Below are positions 52,894-54,901 of a DNA stretch of 54,901 nt, in pieces. The stretch's first letter is position 1, and every line of letters begins with the position of its first letter. This stretch comes from Nitriliruptoraceae bacterium. Lineage in GTDB: Bacteria; Actinomycetota; Nitriliruptoria; Nitriliruptorales; Nitriliruptoraceae. The DNA lies in assembly GCA_007136095.1 (NCBI GenBank), contig SLHP01000076.1, positions 1 to 54,901 of the forward strand. Reading direction: 5' to 3'. Made by a program: the position numbers and the translations under genes. The notes under the pieces are model-generated. The model made no database searches. It saw nothing but the letters and a program-made list of their open reading frames with translations, and had not been told where the DNA came from.

Positions 52894-52939
52894 CGTGCGA
52901 CGGCGGGATGGCCCGATGGCCCCACACCCGCCGGGAACC

Positions 52940-53048
52940 TCACGTCGGCCGCCCCTCATCCAGGCGTCCCGCGACCAGAGCACACAGCCGCTGGAGTTCG
53001 CCGACGTCCCGGTCGCTCAACCCGTCGAAGACCAGCGACCTCACGGTC
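52940..53048 (-). pseudogene. 3' remnant of a MarR-family regulator gene
   Basis: The minus-strand frame ending at the TGA 52940-52942 reads LVFDGLSDRDVGELQRLCAL then VAGRLDEGRPT, matching the C-terminal dimerisation helix of MarR proteins. Upstream of about 53048 the frame no longer resembles MarR, so the DNA-binding part and promoter are missing. It sits back to back with a truncated dioxygenase (53049-53216), as if one deletion took both 5' ends. Confidence 0.5.
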
Positions 53049-53216
53049 GCGTTCCGTGACCGGGCGCCCGGCATGCCCTGCGCCCACCCGACGATAGAGC
53101 ACTTCGCTCCCCTGTTCGTCGCCCTCGGTGCGGGCGCCACGCCCGACGCCGCACCCGAGCAGGTCATCGACGGGTTCTGGATGGGCCTGGCCAAGCGGTC
53201 GCTCCAGGTCGCCTGA
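53049..53216 (+). pseudogene. 3' remnant of a class III extradiol (DODA-type) dioxygenase gene
   Basis: The frame reads APGMPCAHPTIEHFAPLFVA, then LGAGATPDAA and a GFWMGLAKRSLQVA end. This is the C-terminal block of DODA/LigB-type extradiol dioxygenases, whose HPTxEHFxPL motif is conserved. About 200 N-terminal residues with the other iron ligands are absent. A start at 53073 is possible but would give only 47 residues, so it is called a remnant. Confidence 0.6.
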
Positions 53217-53223
53217 ACCCACG

Positions 53224-53298
53224 TCGCAGGTCGCCCCAGCGACGCGACCCCTGCATCGCAGGTCGCTTCAGCAACGCGACCTCTACGTCGCGGCGACC
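53224..53298. repeat. Tandem 32-bp repeat of small hairpins
   Basis: Two full copies (53224-53255 and 53256-53287) and part of a third begin TCGCAGGTCGC. Each copy holds a GGTCGC-N9-GCGACC hairpin (53229-53249 and 53261-53281). The array lies between the dioxygenase remnant and the flavoprotein promoter and may end transcripts from the left. Confidence 0.75.
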
Positions 53299-53315
53299 GC
53301 TCACGCCCTGCCCCG

Positions 53316-53344
53316 TTGACGTATCGATGGTCATCGATGTACGG
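53316..53344 (+). promoter_or_regulatory. Promoter with a perfect operator palindrome in its spacer
   Basis: TTGACG (53316-53321) and GTACGG (53339-53344) are 17 bp apart. The spacer is one perfect inverted repeat after a single base: ATCGATG-GT-CATCGAT, 53323-53338. A repressor bound there would block the polymerase directly. It stands 62 bp before the flavoprotein start. The -10 is weak, so the placement could shift by a base or two, but the palindrome is exact. An ArsR-type repressor would fit; none is encoded in the window. Confidence 0.55.
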
Positions 53345-53399
53345 TGCCTCGCGCACCGGCCCAGCGGCGCGCTGTGACCCAGATCACCGGAGCGACACG

Positions 53400-54817
53400 A
53401 TGACCGACCACCCCATCGCCATCCTCGGTGCCGGCCCCGTCGGCCTGGCCGCCGCCGCCCACCTCGTCGAACGCGGCGAGGAGTTCATCCTCCTGGAAGC
53501 GGGCGCCGGTCCGGGTGCCACCGTCAGGGAGTGGGCCCACGTCCGGCTCTTCTCGCCCTGGAGCTACGTCGTCGACGAGGCGGCCCGCCGCCTGCTCGAG
53601 CCGTCGGGCTGGGACTCCCCGGCCCCCGACAGCTACCCGACGGGCAGCGCGCTCGTCGAGCGCTACCTCGAACCGTGGCGCGGTTGCCCCAGATCGCCCC
53701 GTCCCTCCGGACGCGATCCCGGGTCGCCGACATCACGCGCGCCGGCGCCGACAAGCTCTGGAGTAGGGGCCGCGACCGCCTGCCCTTCGAACTGGTCGTT
53801 GACGGTCCCCACGGACGAACGCGGCTGCGGGCCAGGGCGGTCATCGACGCGACCGGCACCTGGCACTCCCCCAACCCGATCGGCAGCGACGGCCTGCCCG
53901 TCGACGGCGAGACCGAACTCGCGGACCGCATCACACAGCGGATCCCGGACGCTGGTGGCGTCGACCGGGACCGCTACGCGGGTCGCTCGACCCTCGTCAT
54001 CGGTGCGGGGCACTCGGCGTTCAACGCGATCCTCGACCTCGTCAACCTCGCGGGCAGTGCTCCGGATACCCGCGTCACCTGGGCGATCCGCGGCCAGGCG
54101 ACCGGTCGACTGTTCGGCGGAGGTGTCAACGACACCCTCGCGCGACGCGGTGCGTTGGGCACGATGGTCCAGGGCATGGTCGAGAGCGGCCGCGTCCGGC
54201 TGATCACCGACTTCCGCACCACCGGCCTCGAGCGCCGCGACGACGCCGTCCTGGTCCACGGGACCGATCAGACCGGGTCGACACGTGAGATCGGACCCTT
54301 CGATGAGGTGGTCGCCCTGACCGGCTTCCGCCCCGATCACTCGCTGACCTCGGAGCTGCGGGTCAGCTTCGACCCCACGGTCGAGGCACCACCTGCGCTG
54401 GCACCGCTGATCGACCCGAACCTGCACTCGTGCGGCACGGTCCGCCCCCACGGCGCGGCCGACCTGGCCCACCCGGAGTCCGACTACTACACGGTCGGCA
54501 TGAAGTCCTACGGTCGCGCACCGACGTTCCTGATGCTGACCGGCTACGAGCAGGTCCGGTCGGTGGTCGCGGAACTCGTCGGTGACCACGAGGCCGCCGC
54601 CCGGGTCGAGCTGGTCCTGCCCGAGACCGGGGTGTGCTCTACCGACGCGCTGGCCGGCGACGTCCGCGAGCTCGCGTCGGTCGGGGCCGGTGGGGCCGCC
54701 GGGAGCGACGTCGCGCTGGCGGGCGCCACGACCGGCGCACGGACCGAGCTCGCACACGCGGCGGACCCGAACCCGGGTCAGAGCCAGGACCAGGCGCAGG
54801 GTCGCTGCTGCGGCTGA
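53400..54817 (+). pseudogene. FAD/NAD(P)-dependent flavoprotein gene with a single-base frameshift (arsenic-locus type)
   Basis: The ATG at 53400 starts PIAILGAGPVGLAAAAHLVE (FAD motif), followed by REWAHVRLFSPWSYVVDEAA and YPTGSALVERYLEP. At about 53675 the frame is lost. The next frame carries the rest: ARLPQIAPSLRTRSRVADI, a second nucleotide motif LVIGAGHSAFNAILDLV, TGFRPDHSLTSELRV, HSCGTVRPHG, MKSYGRAPTFLMLTGYEQVR and LVLPETGVC, ending in RCCG. One missing base between 53674 and 53677 would rejoin the halves (LEPLARLPQ) into about 472 residues. The family is often found beside arsenic-resistance genes, and the C-terminal Cys pair fits that. The cause could be real decay or a sequencing error. 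Confidence 0.8.
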
Positions 54818-54848
54818 TCGGATCCCCTCCCCCGACCACGGACCTGCT

Positions 54849-54896
54849 GGGATGGGTGGTGAGAGGTGCAGTACTGCACCTCTCACCACCCATCCC
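54849..54896. repeat. Perfect 48-bp palindrome after the flavoprotein gene
   Basis: Arms 54849-54872 and 54873-54896 are exact reverse complements with no spacer (centre GCAGTACTGC). It starts 32 bp after the flavoprotein stop. The core GAGGTGCA-GTAC-TGCACCTC is shared with the hairpin at 27557-27602. It could serve as a terminator or be a dispersed palindromic repeat of this genome. Confidence 0.9.
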
Positions 54897-54901
54897 CTGC
54901 C

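Follow-up and report, generated by a model that had tools for sequence, protein, structure and literature searches.

A promoter palindrome upstream of an arsenic-linked flavoprotein gene in a Nitriliruptoraceae bacterium is a predicted ArsR-type operator

The accessible part of PMC6555750 gives the operator core of the ArsR/SmtB family of repressors as TAxAxTCAAATAxxTATTTGAxTxTA, a 12-2-12 arrangement. In an actinobacterial (Rhodococcus) ars cluster that contains arsR, arsC and other genes, arsO encodes an arsenate-induced NAD(P)/FAD-dependent oxidoreductase, according to the available text of PMC6514093. ArsRs that act beyond their own operon are described in Agrobacterium in the corresponding portion of PMC7965956. 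Here, we analyzed a palindrome that precedes a flavoprotein gene near one end of a 54,901-base stretch of DNA, the whole of which we refer to as the window. The features at this locus are as follows.

53316..53321, plus strand: -35 hexamer TTGACG, read from the sequence; same distance to the operator in G002, a genome of the same genus
53323..53338, no strand: predicted ArsR-type operator ATCGATGGTCATCGAT, fitting ATCGAYRNNYRTCGAT with 0 mismatches
53340..53345, plus strand: probable -10 hexamer TACGGT, at a spacer of 18
53400..54817, plus strand: gene of a flavoprotein (FAD/NAD(P)-binding oxidoreductase), with a frame break at about 53603 to 53693
54849..54896, no strand: 48-base perfect palindrome, 3' of the gene at the contig end, read from the sequence

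The letters bear out the original prediction that a perfect palindrome lies between TTGACG and GTACGG. ATCGATG-GT-CATCGAT is a 7-2-7 inverted repeat with 7-bp arms, a 2-bp centre and no mismatch; a single T at 53322 separates it from TTGACG, and GTACGG (53339-53344) follows directly on its 3' side. The palindrome was also said to fill a 17-bp spacer exactly; it does lie wholly inside, but occupies 16 of the 17 bases. GTACGG itself does not hold up as a -10 element. Because it agrees with TATAAT at 0 of 6 positions, we re-read the -10 as TACGGT, one base further 3', where the T, the A and the final T agree. With this probable assignment, the short-centred inverted repeat overlaps the promoter, between TTGACG and TACGGT. 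The pattern TTGACR-N16-18-TANNNT has a single match in the window on both strands, at 53316, and in first-order Markov simulations it occurred at a mean of 0.10 per window and at least once in 30 of 300 runs. A stricter consensus promoter scan of 52900-54901 found none.

Two further elements flank the promoter. Just 5' of it, 53224-53287 consists of two tandem 32-base copies that are 81% alike. CRP-type sites have the consensus TGTGA-N6-TCACA, and TGTGACCCAGATCACC at 53373-53388, between the promoter and the gene start, resembles such a site.

Compared with the ArsR/SmtB operators covered in the accessible part of PMC6555750, the site is alike in several ways: its inverted repeat is built around a 2-bp centre and placed in an operator/promoter region, relatives have ArsR genes nearby, and two sites often occur. 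In contrast, the window site is 7-2-7 with the letters ATCGAYR-NN-YRTCGAT, which do not match the TCAAATA and TATTTGA halves of the core given there, and its regulator is unlinked. We found no statement of an ATCGAY operator in the open-access papers searched, from which subscription journals are largely missing; this does not imply that the operator is unpublished.

The flavoprotein gene had been described as frameshifted, and the intact protein of G002 indeed aligns across two different frames, to 53403-53693 and 53603-54688. The frame break could be an assembly error. The ATG at 53400 agrees with the point at which the G002 protein begins. The operator also lies inside a stop-free frame that is continuous with the gene, and we kept the start at 53400 despite this upstream frame because the G002 protein fits it. 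Rhodococcus ArsO, as presented in the available text of PMC6514093, and the window flavoprotein are both NAD(P)/FAD oxidoreductases, a likeness by description, whereas the window protein falls far under the NCBI ArsO cut-off (NF040505, 425 bits): its two pieces score 29 and 15.5 bits and the intact G002 protein 38.7. A search with the piece 53531-54814 returned no solved-structure relative at E<=0.001. The neighbourhood of the gene in G002 is that of the window, with M20-peptidase-like and phosphosulfolactate-phosphatase-like genes (assigned by Pfam in the window and by inspection of translations in G002). The 48-base palindrome beyond the gene was not called a terminator because it has no T run.

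A truncated marR, which had been placed to the left of the promoter, was not confirmed: the 40-aa fragment in question (52943-53062, minus strand) has no Pfam match at E<=1 and is too short to decide. The stretch 52940-53216, between two genes, may hold broken-gene fragments; two pieces of it were tested and gave no Pfam match.

Symmetry carries no weight as evidence for an operator here, because such inverted repeats are common. The window contains 12 perfect 7-2-7 repeats, a count that we dropped as evidence for this reason, and ATCGATGNNCATCGAT with up to 3 mismatches occurs 3 times in it against 2.19 expected. The palindrome is credible because it is conserved, not because it is symmetric. 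Exact ATCGATGNNCATCGAT has 1 copy in the 3,056,072-base genome. The pattern ATCGAYNNNNRTCGAT has 2, the other one inside a coding-like open frame of 668 codons; in Markov simulations its mean was 0.017 per window, and it was seen in 5 of 300 runs. When one mismatch is allowed, 28 genome sites match, and position therefore counts. We read 16 of these 28 in their locus context. All but one of the 15 non-window sites read lie in stop-free frames of at least 198 codons with coding-like third-position G+C, the remaining one (L136) being ambiguous; on the 15 sites read, the other near-matches of the genome were rejected as a regulon. Among the matches listed, this genome (G000), G002, G032 and G037 each have 24 to 34 sites of the same one-mismatch pattern and 0 to 5 of its reversed control.

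Conservation was evident at the equivalent position in relatives. Upstream of its flavoprotein gene, G002 reads TTGACGT-ATCGACTTCCATCGAT-ATAGT. The combined word TTGACN{1,3}ATCGAYNNNNRTCGAT has 2 matches in 66 genomes of the class, both just upstream of this same flavoprotein gene (window and G002), and its reversed control has 0; in 396 genomes of the phylum, a draw without G002, the one match is the window, and the reversed control also gives one. We scanned 24 orthologue loci, namely six strong class orthologues besides the window and 18 matches from outside the class; weaker class matches (E 3e-9 and worse) were excluded as distant paralogues, and 5 further relatives were scanned for the motif and kept out of the counts. 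Of the 24 orthologues, 17 have ATCGAYNNNNRTCGAT with at most one mismatch in the 220 bp upstream, or 16 of 23 when G002, from which the pattern was derived together with the window, is removed; the reversed pattern is present in 0 of 24. These loci hold 27 sites in 4,920 bp of upstream DNA versus 0 in the other 97,695 bp. At this threshold the site is absent from seven loci, G028, G222 (two copies), G073, G300, G196 and G329; in G222a and G300, sites appear once two mismatches to the refined consensus are allowed. A motif common at random positions would have counted against the original prediction; the genome, class and orthologue-locus counts did not refute it in this way. A second site lies 34 bp further on in G002; the window has no second site, and many relatives have at least two. 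Across the flavoprotein and ArsR promoters of relatives, start-to-start site spacings fall near 16, 34-35 and 44 bp, which would suit an in-phase placement of dimers.

A set of 47 collected sites gave the consensus ATCGAYR-NN-YRTCGAT, which the window fits with 0 mismatches. The twelve searched positions of this set are biased, which leaves positions 7 to 10 and the flanks as the free ones; of these, positions 7 and 10 are mostly R and Y. The set excludes the site-less flavoprotein loci (G028, G222 twice, G073, G196 and G329) and L044, and one L050 site is absent from it because it lies outside the scanned range.

In relatives, the site is often accompanied by ArsR genes. Using the ArsR encoded on contig C2 of this genome as tblastn query (E<=1e-8), we found that 18 of the 24 flavoprotein loci have an ArsR homologue in their 1.5-kb flanks, and by a separate search one adjoins the flavoprotein gene of G038. 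For 11 ArsR-type genes (from 15 loci, less the three with fusion genes and L045, which has an acetyltransferase only), the site occurs within 260 bp upstream of 10, with 18 sites there and 0 elsewhere in the same loci. Together with the 17 orthologues that have the site, these counts associate it with arsR across genomes. In G377, G310, G300 and G087, the ArsR gene is divergent from the flavoprotein gene, and its product contains the motif EAC(V/I)CD, which resembles CVCDLC, the arsenic site of the E. coli and R773 ArsRs as given in the accessible part of PMC6555750. In G032, G037, G038 and G052, the gene divergent from that of the flavoprotein encodes an ArsR-acetyltransferase fusion; the G032 fusion resembles ArsN1, under the model cut-off (135.5 of 170 bits). 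As the regulator in our genome, such a fusion was rejected: a near full-length match occurs in just three of 41 genomes (G032, G037 and G038), and the fusion is also seen in G052. Other genes beside the flavoprotein gene are ArsC-like (G377), aquaporin-like (G353) and ArsI/CadI (G087, above its cut-off).

No ArsR gene lies beside the flavoprotein gene in this genome or in G002, and an adjacent or autoregulated arsR, which is common without being strictly defining, was not found here. The genome has 11 PF01022 matches, none of them on the window contig. The best own match to the ArsR part of the G032 fusion is the C2 ArsR (G000:C2:2714-3046, 110 aa), which is 87% identical to the ArsR on contig C406 of G002. 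The C406 arsR is divergent from an ArsP-type permease gene (PF03773), and two exact operators, 36 bp apart, lie between the two genes; ArsR and ArsP are also divergent in G007, where the distance between the two exact sites is 35 bp. Two observations agree with the earlier suggestion of a regulator encoded elsewhere: the window contig has 0 of the 11 matches, and the G002 orthologue of the C2 ArsR has the same operator in its promoter. Upstream of the C2 arsR itself there is no site even at two mismatches, and the only ArsP-type gene found in this genome is on C189, away from the C2 arsR and without a site. The ArsRs on C2 and C406 both have the Rv2640c-family ArsR model (NF041413) among their best matches; their scores of 79.6 and 84.7 bits fall short of its cut-off of 155, which makes them relatives of that family, not members. 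Elsewhere in the genome, a histidine-rich small protein gene on contig C34 (L026, 5140-5640) has ACATCGCGATGTATCGATGT upstream, by eye perhaps a metal operator, and adjoins another ArsR gene and an ABC-transporter ATPase gene.

Given these comparisons of sequence, we consider it likely that 53323-53338 is an ArsR-family operator inside the promoter of the arsenic-linked flavoprotein gene, with the C2 ArsR acting in trans as its likeliest regulator. The arrangement had been ascribed to repressors of the ArsR/MarR type; the ArsR part is supported, with the site at 17 of 24 flavoprotein orthologues and 10 of 11 ArsR-type genes, while the MarR part, for which there is the nearby fragment without Pfam match, is not. 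A dimeric ArsR repressor, most likely the C2 ArsR, would occupy both ATCGAYR half-sites between the -35 and the -10, and once bound would exclude RNA polymerase. Trivalent arsenic on the cysteines of the repressor would then cause its release, allowing the flavoprotein to be made. The locus would be an ordinary, conserved kind of switch, one expected to work like an ArsR operator and grouped with these by association.

We think it unlikely that the partner of this ArsR-type operator is another ArsR of the genome, such as that encoded divergently from ACR3 on contig C25, or an ArsR absent from the assembly, which is 92% complete. The number of PF01022 matches in the genome speaks for such a partner, as does C25, where ACR3 and ArsR are neighbours. 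The window ends with the same 46 bases with which C25 begins; because of these shared ends the two contigs probably adjoin, which probably puts the C25 ArsR about 13 kb downstream. A DNA ligase gene comes next on C25, as in G002 (by eye for G002). However, C25 has no ATCGAY site at one mismatch anywhere, and its ArsR is just 37% identical to the C2 ArsR over 73 aa, whereas the operator-linked ArsRs of G300, G310, G377, G073 and G087 are 46-60% identical to it. The ACR3/ArsR promoter region of C25 (L139, 12750-12875), which has no ATCGAY site, contains repeated TTGCA...TGCAG words, perhaps the operator of a different ArsR.

That the operator is a relic, no longer of consequence beside a decaying flavoprotein gene, appears improbable. 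It would agree with the broken frame, with the one operator here against two in G002, and with the C2 arsR lacking a site, but the site is perfect, the promoter words are kept and the break may be artefactual. MarR-type sites are also palindromic, and the claimed marR-like fragment nearby could point to a repressor of the MarR or some other type; we regard this as very improbable, since the fragment matches no Pfam family and the site tracks ArsR genes in relatives. Mere chance, with 12 perfect 7-2-7 repeats in the window in its favour, is the least probable account and would be surprising, as the letters and position are conserved in G002 and across the phylum and the Markov expectation is 0.017 per window.

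For the predicted ArsR operator, a broader and distinctly tentative reading is that ATCGAYR-NN-YRTCGAT could be the operator code of one ArsR clade across Actinomycetota. The regulator may here have been cut loose, its arsR having lost its own operators and the divergent arsP, so that one operator within the promoter spacer, at a flavoprotein gene in decay, would be its only recognisable target. In Actinomycetota, ATCGAYRNNYRTCGAT can serve as a search word for listing likely ArsR targets, and the promoter site would link a flavoprotein of unsettled role to arsenic sensing.
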